This document shows, one piece after another, positions 54,201-56,881 of a DNA stretch of 64,000 nt. Source of the DNA: Bacteroidota bacterium (GTDB lineage: Bacteria; Bacteroidota; Bacteroidia; B-17B0; Aurantibacillaceae); NCBI GenBank assembly GCA_013697245.1, contig JACCXH010000049.1, forward strand, positions 186,001-250,000, given 5' to 3'. The notes beneath the pieces are model-generated. The model made no database searches and was not told where the DNA came from. It saw only the letters and a list, made by a program, of their open reading frames with translations. The first letter of the stretch is position 1; each line of letters starts with the position of its first letter. Both the position numbers and the translations under genes were made by a program.

Positions 54201-54278
54201 ATGTTAACTTTATTTATTGTTCCGGCAATGTATTCTTATTTAGTAAAAGATAAAAAAATTGAGGATGAAACTGTTTAA
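51201..54278 (+). CDS. RND efflux pump, inner-membrane transporter (AcrB/HAE1-like)
   Basis: This 1025-residue RND transporter begins MDLASLSVRRPVLAIVMSII and has twelve membrane helices and two large periplasmic loops. The proton-relay Asp pair is in GLVVDDGIVVTENIFKK, as in AcrB (Asp407/Asp408). REFPSVDPPVITV and GSKSRMGMGIVIIGGLL are typical of the HAE1 family. It pumps amphiphilic compounds by proton motive force through the adaptor and TolC. It starts 1 base after the adaptor stop and overlaps the TolC start. It is full length, with no disruption. Confidence 0.96.
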   Translation: MDLASLSVRRPVLAIVMSIIIVLFGAIGFNYLGIREFPSVDPPVITVRTSYTGANADVIQSQITEPLEKAINGIDGIRSISASSNQGSSVITIEFNLSSNLEAAANDVRDKVSQALKQLPQDIDASPVVSKADANSDAIISMTILSDTRSLLDVSDYAENVISQNLQTISGVSSIQIWGQRKYSMRIRLKPDQLAAYKLTPLDVKQALDRENVNLPSGKIEGNSTELTVNTIGRLSTVSEFENMILKEDASNIVRLRDVAKVELGAENEETILKESGTPMIGLGLVPQPGANYIDIANEFYKRYELIKKELPKDYTVNIALDNTLFIKKSIIEVGETLAIALVLVILIIFLFFRDWLIAFRPLIDIPVSLIGSFFIMYLMDYSINVLTLLAIVLATGLVVDDGIVVTENIFKKLKKGLSPKQAAIEGTKEITTAVIITSLTLAAVFMPVIFLEGFVGRLFREFGVVLAGAVLISAFVSLTLTPMLNAKLVRKDPTKKSKFYVWSEKYFVALDVWFKSMVTSFLQKRWWALIILVVSFAAIFIFGSQVPSELSPLEDRNWLRLTVSAPEGTSFESTDALMDKISTFIGDSVPEKRVCLTVTAPGFAGSGAVNTGFVRLALSQSGERKRTQAEIAAYITKNISQFPEGKVFVIQEQSISSGGGPRGTLPVQFVLQTNDFNKIREKLPKFLELANKNPTFQGVDANLKFNKPELIIEILRDKAKTLGVSIADVAQTIQLALSGQRFGYYIKGDKQYQVLGQVNRQNRDDPNDIKQLYVRNNKGEMIQLDNIITIEEQSSPPQYYHYNRYQSATVSAGLAPGKTIGDGIDAMNQIAAKVLDDSFNTALTGASRDFSESSSNIVFAFVLALILIYLLLAAQFESFVEPLIIILFTVPMALAGALFALWYFNQTLNIFSQIGMIMLIGLVTKNGILIIEFTNQLRKKGMNVREALIEASTARLRPILMTSLATVLGALPIAMALGAGSKSRMGMGIVIIGGLLLSMMLTLFIVPAMYSYLVKDKKIEDETV

Positions 54279-55566
54279 ATATCTTTTTATTGTAATTGGC
54301 TATTGTAATTATTTGGTGGCGCAAGACCTTTTAACTCTAAACGATGCTATTAAAATTGGCCTTGAAAAGAATTATTCTGTTTTGATCGTAAAAAATAACC
54401 AGGAAATTGCCAAAGCACAAAATAATTTCGGTAATGCCGGTATGTCGCCAACCGTTAGTTTAAATGGCGGATTAAATGCTGCTAATATAAACTCCCATCA
54501 GGAATTTAATACCGGTGTAGTGCAGGATAGAACGGGGGCAAAGACCAATAACCTGGCCGCGTCGGTTAACGCTAACTGGCTTATATTTGACGGTTTAAGA
54601 ATGTTTGCTATTAAAAAACGGTTAGATCTTAATGAAGGGCTTTCGGCCATTCAATTAAAACAGCAAATGGAAAACTCGGTTTACGATATTATTGTAAACT
54701 ATTATAATATTGTAAGAACAGTAGAACTTATAAAAGCGGCAAAACAAAATTTAGCTATTTATGAAGAGCGCAAAAAAATTGCCAAACTTAAATTAGAGAT
54801 CGGTTCTGATTCAAAAGTTGATTTTTTGTTAACGCAATCTGATGAGAACAAAGCTAAAAGTGCTATCATACAATTAGAGATCGCTCTTTTAAATGCAAAA
54901 ACAGCACTCAATAAACTTATCAGTAAACCAATTGATTCAGATTTTAAAACAAGCGATTCTATCATTATTAATTATGAGCCAAGCCTTGAAGAATTAAAAA
55001 AAAGTGTTTCTAATTCAAATTCTTCTATTCTTATTTCAAAACAGAACGAATTAATATTTACGCAAAGTATAAAAGAGGCCCGTTCGGCTAATTTACCTTT
55101 TGTAATGCTAAATGGCGCGTATAATTTTACACGTAACCAAAGCCAGGCTGGAATTGTGTTTTTGAGTCAGCAAGCAGGATTAAACGCTGGTATCACTGCC
55201 AGTTGGTTAATTTTTAACGGTAATAAAAATAACCGTCTCGTAAAAGAGCGAAATATTCTTGCTTTAAATCAAAAGTATGTTACTGAGCAAACGCAATTAA
55301 ATGTTGACGCTTTGGTTTACAACAATTATAAAACATATCTATTGAACAAACAGATTGTTGATTTAGAGTTTCAGAACTTAAAAGACTCTAAAGAGGTTTT
55401 GGATGTTTCTTTAGAAAGATATAAAATTGGCAAGGCAAATTTATTAGAGACCATTGAAACGCAAAAGAATTTAGAGGACGCGCAAACACGTTACATCAAC
55501 GCGTTGTATTCTATAAAAGTAGCTGAAACTGAGTTACTGAGAGCAAATGGAAGTTTGGTTAAGTAG
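54265..55566 (+). CDS. TolC family outer-membrane efflux protein
   Basis: This 433-residue TolC-like protein has a signal peptide (MKLFKYLFIVIGYCNYLVAQ) followed by two outer-membrane-efflux repeats. The opening LTLNDAIKIGLEKNYSVLIV is typical, and long coiled helices with ARSANLPFVMLNGAYN follow. The ATG at 54265 is chosen; a TTG six bases upstream is possible but less natural. It overlaps the pump gene by 14 bases. As the last gene of the operon it completes the tripartite efflux system. Confidence 0.93.
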   Translation: MKLFKYLFIVIGYCNYLVAQDLLTLNDAIKIGLEKNYSVLIVKNNQEIAKAQNNFGNAGMSPTVSLNGGLNAANINSHQEFNTGVVQDRTGAKTNNLAASVNANWLIFDGLRMFAIKKRLDLNEGLSAIQLKQQMENSVYDIIVNYYNIVRTVELIKAAKQNLAIYEERKKIAKLKLEIGSDSKVDFLLTQSDENKAKSAIIQLEIALLNAKTALNKLISKPIDSDFKTSDSIIINYEPSLEELKKSVSNSNSSILISKQNELIFTQSIKEARSANLPFVMLNGAYNFTRNQSQAGIVFLSQQAGLNAGITASWLIFNGNKNNRLVKERNILALNQKYVTEQTQLNVDALVYNNYKTYLLNKQIVDLEFQNLKDSKEVLDVSLERYKIGKANLLETIETQKNLEDAQTRYINALYSIKVAETELLRANGSLVK

Positions 55567-55575
55567 TAGTCTTAC

Positions 55576-55600
55576 TTTAACACATAGACTCATAGAGTTT
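55576..55600. repeat. Left inverted repeat of GxxExxY cassette
   Basis: TTTAACACATAG at 55576 is followed by a second CATAG unit. It matches the reverse complement of 56023-56044, apart from a few differing bases and a 2-3-base size difference. The out-of-frame tail of the GxxExxY gene stops inside this arm (TGA at 55590-55592). Confidence 0.75.
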
Positions 55601-56016
55601 CTGGTAAATTTCTAAAATATTCATTTACCAGTGTTTTTTGACCTTCCGCAAAAATATTTTTGCAATTAAAATTAATTAAAACTCCTTTTTGGTGCTTTTA
55701 AAAAGTTCATATAGGTTAGAAGCTGCGCTTCAAACACTGAGTGTATTTCATGTGTTGCCTTCAATTCTGCAACCAAACAATTTTCAATAAATAAATCGCA
55801 CCTCAGATCAATATCCAGCAGTTTGGATTTGTATAAAACGGGAATTTTTAACTCTGTGGAAAAATTTATTTTTCTATGCTTCAACTCTTCCTTCATACAT
55901 TGATGATATACATTTTCTAATAACCCGCTACCCATGGGTTTATGGACTTCGATGGCAGCACCAATAACCTCATAAGTAAGCTCGTCAAGAAATTTTTTGG
56001 TAATTGGCCTTTCCAT
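55590..56016 (-). pseudogene. GxxExxY protein gene, frameshifted near the 3' end
   Basis: The main frame (55672-56016) gives 114 residues with the family motif G31-x-x-E34-x-x-Y37 (GSGLLENVY) and a PD-(D/E)xK-like pattern (DLRCDLFIENCLVAELKA). It ends early at MNFLKAPKRSFN. The other frame continues the family's normal ending without a stop: GVLINFNCKNIFAEGQ followed by KTLVNEYFRNLPETL, up to a TGA at 55590. The shift is at a run of five A residues (minus strand; T at 55686-55690), where four would restore the frame. It may be a natural mutation, slippage or a sequencing error. The gene is flanked closely by inverted repeats. The function of the family is not established. Confidence 0.85.
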
Positions 56017-56022
56017 AATAAC

Positions 56023-56044
56023 AACTATGTGCCTATGTGTTAAA
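56023..56044. repeat. Right inverted repeat of GxxExxY cassette
   Basis: AACTATGTGCCTATGTGTTAAA is the inverted match of 55576-55600. It ends 6 bases before the GxxExxY start codon on the minus strand and 4 bases from the stop codon of the DPM1-like gene. Each arm is itself built of two CACATAG-like units. Confidence 0.75.
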
Positions 56045-56048
56045 AAAA

Positions 56049-56756
56049 TTAGCTACTAAACCGCATTTGAATAACACCTAAAAATGCTTCTTTAAAGATC
56101 TTGGTGCTCATTTTACTTTCGCCTAAAACCCTATCTGTAAACATAATTGGAACCTCTACAATCTTAAACCCTTTTTTGTAAGCACGGTATTTCATCTCTA
56201 TCTGGAAAGCATATCCCATAAAGCGAATAGCATCCAGGTTTATTGTTTCCAATACTTTGCGCTTATAACATTTAAAGCCTGCTGTTGTATCTTTAACAGG
56301 GATCCATAAAATAAAACGAACATATACAGAGGCAAAATAGCTCATTAAGATCCTGCCAAACGGCCAGTTACTGATCTTTCCTCCTTTGCAATAGCGTGAG
56401 CCAACAGCTACATCGGCTTTGGTTTCACATGCCTCTAAAAGCCTTACAAGATCTTTCGGGTCATGACTAAAATCACAATCCATTTCAAAAATATAATCAT
56501 AGTCGCTGGCCAATGCCCATTTAAAACCATGAATATAAGCGGTTCCCAGGCCAAGTTTTCCTTTACGTTCTTCAATGTGTAATTTTCCGGGGAACTCTTT
56601 TTGAAGTTCTTTTACTTTATTTGCGGTGCCATCCGGCGAGCCATCATCCACAATTAGTAATTCAAATTCACGCGTTAACGAGAAAACAGCGCGCACCATT
56701 TTATCAATGTTTTCAATTTCATTGTAAGTAGGTATTATTACTAAATTCTTGCCCAT
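56049..56756 (-). CDS. Polyprenol-phosphate mannose synthase-like GT2 enzyme
   Basis: This 235-residue soluble GT2 enzyme matches DPM1-type synthases that move mannose (or a related hexose) from a nucleotide donor to a polyprenyl phosphate. It shows LVIIPTYNEIENI, the donor motif IVDDGSPDGT, the catalytic MDCDFSHDP and GSRYCKGGKISNWP. No C-terminal membrane helices are present. The ATG at 56756 is chosen over an upstream ORF start at 56798 because family members begin right before the first beta strand. It could feed lipid-linked sugar to GT-C enzymes such as the pair at 40-44 kb, but that is inference. Confidence 0.93.
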   Translation of the reverse strand: MGKNLVIIPTYNEIENIDKMVRAVFSLTREFELLIVDDGSPDGTANKVKELQKEFPGKLHIEERKGKLGLGTAYIHGFKWALASDYDYIFEMDCDFSHDPKDLVRLLEACETKADVAVGSRYCKGGKISNWPFGRILMSYFASVYVRFILWIPVKDTTAGFKCYKRKVLETINLDAIRFMGYAFQIEMKYRAYKKGFKIVEVPIMFTDRVLGESKMSTKIFKEAFLGVIQMRFSS

Positions 56757-56881
56757 TAACGCCACTAATATAACTATAATGCTTCTAAATAGTAACAAAA
56801 AAAAGTCAATTATATTGTTCTTTTAAATAATTTTACCAATTAGCGGTATTTATAAAAACACCTGCTTTTAAATTTAACTGC

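Follow-up and report, generated by a model that had tools for sequence, protein, structure and literature searches.

Small nuclease-type genes between inverted repeats are described in the REP/RAYT (REPtron) and TIRYT/TIRtron systems; many gene-less palindromes accompany them, singly or in arrays, and the repeats are lineage-specific (PMC3733652). The intervening sequences (IVS) of 23S rRNA that carry an S23 ORF consist of a small ORF with terminal inverted repeats, are distributed sporadically, and are suspected to be mobile (PMC4990558).

Here we describe a GxxExxY gene between inverted arms, found within a window of 64,000 nucleotides from a genome of the phylum Bacteroidota (the window is the whole stretch of DNA analysed). 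We know of no established function for GxxExxY genes. Our main reading, to which we give a probability of about 60%, is a selfish element resembling a REPtron, in which a Cas4-like nuclease takes the place of the HUH transposase found in REP/RAYT systems. Open-access literature searched on GxxExxY, PF13366, REP, MITE, and intervening sequences yielded, by title or opening of the abstract, no description of such an element; subscription papers and preprints were outside the scope of that search.

The window cassette and its copies in the same genome

The cassette lies on the minus strand, between the convergent 3′ ends of two flanking genes. Its 5′ arm (56,025..56,044, minus strand) reads TTTAACACATAGGCACATAG on that strand, and its 3′ arm (55,576..55,595, minus strand), a match to the arm pattern, carries two CATAG-type words. 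The arms are 20 nt long, 90% complementary, and 429 nt apart, and the GxxExxY gene on the minus strand is the only gene between them. The flanking genes are presumably a TolC-like gene (54,259..55,566, plus strand), with its stop 10 bp from the arm, and presumably a glycosyltransferase-like gene (56,049..56,798, minus strand), with its stop 5 bp from the arm. Thus, the bracketed gene with nothing else inside, as put forward by the initial annotation, was found as described. Its inverted arms are real too, but the length of about 22-25 bases given there is slightly long, and the start codon is 8 bases away from the arm instead of 6.

The arm pair scores 15.0 by the ungapped inverted-repeat score. 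A chance origin is unlikely, because none of the 530 displaced control intervals (240 + 290) reached a score of 14.

The reading frame (55,672..56,016, minus strand) encodes 114 aa and ends early at a frame break. It is a member of the GxxExxY family (PD-(D/E)XK, Cas4-like), since both profile scores exceed the curated cut-offs: TIGR04256 with E 6.5e-31 and 107.1 bits (cut-off 35), and PF13366 with E 8.5e-30 and 104 bits (cut-off 22). It retains residues E34, D74, E84-x-K86, and Q98xxxY102 of the family alignment. The C-terminal part is out of frame. Near an A5 run (55,686..55,690, minus strand), one frame ends with ...NFLKAPKRSFN and a stop; the conserved family end, KGVLINFNCKNIF...NLPETL and a stop, is read in another frame (KGVLINFN...NLPETL, 55,590..55,688, minus strand). 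The frame break is there in the present sequence, as had been claimed, and the original stop does sit inside one arm: the TGA that would close the family frame occupies 55,590-55,592, within the 3′ arm. In one relative (G013), the ortholog at this site is broken too, but at a different place. We consider it rather probable that a selfish element of very small size is present at the window locus as a decayed copy.

Arms of this kind recur in the genome. CACATAG arm pairs also flank a second GxxExxY pseudogene (contig C70), and six gene-less pairs span 126-144 bp (C6, C29, two in C44, C47, and C52), which is too short for a GxxExxY gene. These gene-less copies are terminal inverted repeats without coding capacity. 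A seventh gene-less pair (C50) has one degenerate arm, and a broader pattern listed, as pattern matches only, inverted CACTAAG-type pairs in C33, C36, and C41, with a span of roughly 93-161 bp. Most of the gene-less elements in C6, C29, C44, and C52 (L031-L036) present an inner hairpin besides the outer arms, often TTCTTCGC..GCGAAGAA, located between CATAG and ATGTG-type words.

The genome contains six GxxExxY matches in different states: two are open (C37 and C53:27317), the window copy is frame-broken, two carry stops (C70 and C41), and one is partial (C46). Genes of the four-helix bundle family (TIGR02436) are present as well, three in C33 and two in C23.

Inverted word arrays and the GxxExxY protein

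We sampled 198 genomes from the phylum of the window. GxxExxY genes were present in 101 of them, with up to 12 per genome, and TIGR02436 in 153. The four-helix protein of the latter family is related to the 23S rRNA intervening sequences and to the retroelement accessory protein Avd. The inverted-repeat score reached 12 or more in 24 of the 30 listed GxxExxY loci of the phylum vs. 0/120 displaced controls, and in 17 of the 30 listed four-helix loci (L141-L170) vs. 0/120. The inverted repeats of the four-helix loci use other words than those of the GxxExxY loci.

Shuffling each locus's own flanks (40 shuffles each) never equaled the observed score in 23/30 GxxExxY and 17/30 four-helix loci. When flanks of other loci served as the control, 16/30 GxxExxY and 7/30 four-helix loci exceeded the 95th percentile, and only 2 and 0, respectively, exceeded the 99th. 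We read this control as being raised by shared words and by near-identical orthologous loci; for the selfish-element reading, it is the weaker one. Chance arms were rejected on the basis of the 530 displaced control intervals and the own-flank shuffles, and the other-locus control is much less clear-cut.

Beyond this sample, we took the best 80 of 570 confirmed loci from named genomes; four were cut by contig ends, leaving 76 testable. Arms were present in 56 of the 76 vs. 0/290 displaced controls: at a score of at least 14, 28/44 Bacteroidota loci vs. 0/170 controls, and 28/32 other named loci vs. 0/120. These loci come from about ten phyla according to taxon labels that we assigned from the record titles, one Rhizobium bin being possibly misassigned. 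In a few named loci (e.g., L216 and L225), the best repeat was not a word array.

Pooling 124 loci, of which 99 had arms scoring at least 12, we found that most arms are built from a single 7-nt word, C[AG][CT]NNAG, repeated as an array. Among 57 loci with at least two words in register, the spacing was 9 nt 45 times, 8 nt 33 times, 10 nt 10 times, and other values 9 times. Conservation beyond the first word covers about six bases (TTnAAC) and then fades (66/86 loci). Because a pattern match in either arm was enough to define a word position, the unbiased comparison is between the free NN letters and the spacers: the former mismatched between arms in 43/308 cases (14%) vs. 74/182 (41%) for the latter. 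Spacers mismatch far more often than words; therefore, it is the repeated words that are kept and not a perfect stem, and a constraint acting solely through perfect pairing, in RNA or DNA, is not supported. The agreement of the NN letters was 0.59 within an arm, 0.60 for non-partner words of opposite arms, and 0.17 between loci. A word that is kept, repeated, and inverted suggests, at the level of sequence, recognition by a protein rather than pairing alone.

The word also follows the protein lineage. For 82 loci (3321 pairs, after dropping 15 same-site pairs), word sharing rose from 0.01 at 40-45% protein identity to 0.14 at 50-60% and 0.52 at 60% or above, the local-alignment identities being generous. 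The Mantel r was 0.587, and none of the 1000 permutations was as high. Different gene copies within one genome carry different words, which means that the choice of word is not dictated by the host alone.

Regarding the protein, E34, D74, K86, Q98, and Y102 were invariant in 26 sequences, and E84 nearly so. E, D, ExK, and QxxxY are the motif names of Cas4/RecB-like PD-(D/E)XK nucleases. The predicted structure of an intact relative (L087) had a mean pLDDT of 93.9, and its best solved match was Cas4 SSO0001 (Foldseek E 1.1e-3, Z 9.3, 99 residues, rmsd 3.6, 22% identity). Foldseek returned no match for this model at E ≤ 0.001. Other matches, including Hjc resolvases, had Z 7.5 or below and may reflect only a common fold. 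By its residues and the predicted fold of the intact relative, GxxExxY falls within the Cas4/RecB-like branch of PD-(D/E)XK nucleases. A search for solved relatives by sequence gave only 4ic1, at E 0.92.

Purifying selection acts on the intact copies, and others decay. Eleven intact copies of the genus presented dN/dS values of 0.07-0.24 where dS was defined, which argues that the protein does something that is selected. A defence origin and a phage origin were considered and rejected: for two proteins, PADLOC gave only a weak Cas4 match for one (E 0.0065), and PHROGs one weak CRISPR-associated match for the other (E 0.0012).

Site occupancy and gene-less palindromes

We looked for the DNA of the window site in the 40 genus genomes and chose twelve of the loci listed for comparison; both flanks could be placed in 11. 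The window element was present in one of the 11 relatives (G013), and seven had no element at the site (G023, G037, G017, G039, G015, G012, and G029). G003 had an 839-bp gap with other sequence and G021 an unclassified 196-bp gap. In G031 (L080), the same gap contained a different gene-less palindrome of another word type, with CCACTAATTTCACAAA arms and a central hairpin, so this gap has been used repeatedly. Elsewhere in the relatives, a CACATAG arm pair was the best inverted repeat in 14/22 gene loci, some of which share a site. The initial annotation had looked to empty sites in relatives as support for mobility and to unique arms, or an ortholog at the same place in all of them, as evidence against it; the arms recur and seven of the 11 sites are free of insert, so neither is the case. 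Together with the recurrence of the arms, this variable occupancy supports a unit that moves as a cassette.

A second site was compared among eight close species. The unit was present in G093, G139, G065, and G202, reduced to a remnant in G077, and absent in G214, G108, and G104. In the occupied species, a GxxExxY frame lies between the same two genes and on their strand. Among the empty ones, the stop and start codons overlap by four bases as ATGA in G214 only, and are separated by 3 nt in G108 and 2 nt in G104. Roughly 20 bp differ at the junction, and a duplication is not evident. In G077 (L295), what is left of the cassette is a remnant from the 3′ part of the gene and pieces of the arms, separated by other sequence; it is possible that this remnant is a step towards gene-less copies. 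We infer that the differences in presence and absence are gains rather than losses.

No target-site duplication was detected in 66 coding loci, where the longest flank repeat was at least 6 in 9/66 vs. 11% in mispaired flanks; this test covered the coding copies. Plasmids did not provide near-identical empty sites: with one query, the gene was found in 8 of 72,556 records, all below 60% identity to the query, and one of these records was read.

Most copies are oriented with their neighbours. Simple open frames allowed both neighbours to be called in 78 of the 86 armed GxxExxY loci, some of which are orthologs: 56 had both on the strand of the gene, 4 both on the opposite strand, and 18 were mixed, vs. 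30, 11, and 49 for control genes of these loci. GxxExxY genes without detected arms showed the same sense bias (11 vs. 0). In two sets without control genes, four-helix loci were 25 sense vs. 1, and the GxxExxY copies of the genus were 9 sense vs. 0 opposite, with six mixed. The median distance from the outer arm edge to the facing stop codon was 9.5 bp (78 cases, 47 of them within 20 bp). Such a bias is what one would expect either of a gene that lacks a promoter and is read from the host operon or of an RNA step.

Palindromes made of these words but lacking a gene are found elsewhere in gene-carrying genomes, also in arrays. In G001 and G002, the words form palindromes, single and in arrays, one of the arrays directly following a GxxExxY gene. 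The shortest ones are 83-84 bp long and consist of four words, a short loop, and four words. A spacer series of 1-2-3 between words was read in two G001 cassettes and in most G002 palindrome arms; thus, the word spacing of the two cassettes examined is that of the palindromes in another species. From the 99 arm matches listed in G001, we kept 91 after dropping two overlaps and six that were not word-like; eight of these have a GxxExxY gene within 250 bp, and the other 83 are farther away from one. RNA folding of eight gene-less examples gave z values from -5.0 to -7.9.

Across the 40 genus genomes, we counted 1044 arm matches vs. 132 for the reversed pattern. The mean number of arms was 2.0 (control 3.0) in six genomes without the gene, two of which are incomplete (81% and 73%), 13.4 (control 3.2) in 14 genomes with one or two genes, and 42.2 (control 3.5) in 20 genomes with three or more. 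The Spearman correlation between arms and gene copies was 0.71 on the full counts and 0.51 once two arms had been subtracted for each gene, both uncorrected for relatedness. Within the genus, arms were in excess of the control only where the gene is present, but several gene-carrying genomes had no such excess (e.g., G004, G008, G018, G022, and G036).

In the wider phylum, where the arm pattern covers CAC-type words only, the link between arms and gene was weaker: an arm excess of at least 8 was seen in 24/100 genomes with the gene vs. 3/97 without it. After subtracting two arms per gene, the mean excess was -2.5 with the gene vs. -0.2 without it, and 8 vs. 3 genomes had an excess of at least 8. 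Of the three exceptions without the gene, only G146 has clusters of true words; these are CACAAAG/CACTAAG arms (C70, C120, and C21), and the genome has no GxxExxY match. G137 and G152 were dropped as gene-less arm-rich genomes, their matches being scattered and not word-like.

Explanations and comparison with known systems

Under the selfish-element reading, an intact unit would measure about 450-650 bp and consist of TTnAACC, two to four 7-nt words (C[AG][CT]NNAG, 8-10 nt apart), the nuclease gene, and the inverted word array. The nuclease would be the mover of the unit. It would bind those word arrays that belong to its lineage, probably in the form of extruded or single-stranded hairpins, and cut them. 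As in REP/RAYT, the unit and the gene-less palindromes would then be copied to gaps that follow a stop codon, with the cut unit or its copy joining such a gap and the gene-less palindromes being served in trans by the nuclease. Expression of the gene would probably rely on read-through from the operon of the host, a dependence that would favour insertion in sense, and the TTAA-type ends would supply stop codons on both strands.

Other explanations account for part of these observations. The palindromes could be ordinary REP or MITE elements spread by RAYT (Y1) transposases, the gene having merely landed between two of them. Y1 matches do occur in 29/40 genus genomes, the organization in arrays is REP-like, and one or two words were seen in both flanks of 4/20 Y1 loci. 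However, the best inverted repeats of Y1 loci are other sequences, with a CACNNAG array as the best repeat in 0/20 Y1 loci opened, so arms made by RAYT/Y1 transposases are not supported. Moreover, the arm-rich G002 and G013 lack a Y1 match, the GTAG tag is rare at arm ends, and loci of about ten phyla have the gene enclosed by arms. We regard this explanation as highly improbable. Several Y1 genes of the genus (L305-L324) have their own palindromes, for example GCCCCGGAGGGGC and CTCCGTAGGAGC. A gene that is not mobile at all, a host gene with arms that act as mRNA processing or attenuation stems like the RNase III-cut 23S rRNA intervening sequences, would agree with arms that are inverted, sense-oriented, and near stop codons, and with gene-less copies that fold strongly as RNA; the 23S IVS elements have such a design (PMC4990558). 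Presence and absence at orthologous sites, copies at many places, dispersed gene-less arrays, and the 41% spacer mismatch make this improbable, if less so than spread by RAYT transposases.

The alternative that keeps most weight also assumes a mobile cassette, with the nuclease as cargo or accessory. It and the four-helix (TIGR02436) cassettes would have a different enzyme in common that moves both kinds (such as a reverse transcriptase, a transposase, or host recombination), and the sense insertion would point to an RNA step. We retain it mainly because four-helix genes also sit between short-word inverted repeats (17/30): two non-homologous families would share this arrangement, and both are sense-biased (25 vs. 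1 for the four-helix loci). The G146 arrays without a GxxExxY gene agree with it as well. On the other side, the word type follows the GxxExxY lineage and arms track the gene in the 40 genus genomes. No Y1 (RAYT-like) match was found in G002 and G013, with 50 and 51 arms, and the Y1 loci opened do not have the CACNNAG array as their best repeat. Movement by a shared enzyme thus appears unlikely to us, although it deserves more weight than the two explanations above.

In its broadest form, the selfish-element reading would define a new mobile class, in which a Cas4-like PD-(D/E)XK nuclease reads lineage-specific arrays of a 7-nt word and spreads itself and gene-less palindromes, in sense, into operon gaps of about ten phyla, next to a parallel four-helix class of the same design, perhaps with an RNA step. 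We advance this broad form tentatively, at somewhat below even odds. If true, a large gene family that is annotated but empty would gain a role, many intergenic palindromes would gain an origin, and a PD-(D/E)XK nuclease would fill the place of the HUH transposase in REP systems. Since the words vary with the protein lineage, recognition is directly testable by swapping. The design in common with the four-helix cassettes also brings back an old question, the way in which 23S rRNA intervening sequences are moved.

Compared with known systems, the element is closest to REPtrons in its gene-less palindromes, dispersed and arrayed, which are related to those at the GxxExxY gene. It differs from them in that the gene (PF13366) is a Cas4-like PD-(D/E)XK and not an HUH Y1 (TnpA-REP), in arms that are arrays of 7-nt words with the GTAG tag at only 1/132 arm ends, and in that Y1 genes exist separately in the genus, with best inverted repeats that differ in sequence. 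With the 23S rRNA IVS it shares a small ORF between terminal inverted repeats and a sporadic distribution. However, the window gene matches only TIGR04256 and not the S23/TIGR02436 four-helix family, and the window site is a gap between two protein-coding frames instead of a 23S rRNA helix.

MITEs are linked to a DDE transposase. Like them, the gene-less elements are short, have terminal inverted repeats, and lie in intergenic DNA; unlike them, they have arms of repeated words, no target-site duplication detected at the coding copies, and a link to a PD-(D/E)XK gene. Finally, GxxExxY resembles Cas4/RecB-like nucleases in its predicted fold (SSO0001, Z 9.3) and in the E, D, ExK, and QxxxY residues, but it is much smaller, has 22% identity over 99 aligned residues, and is located between inverted word arrays.
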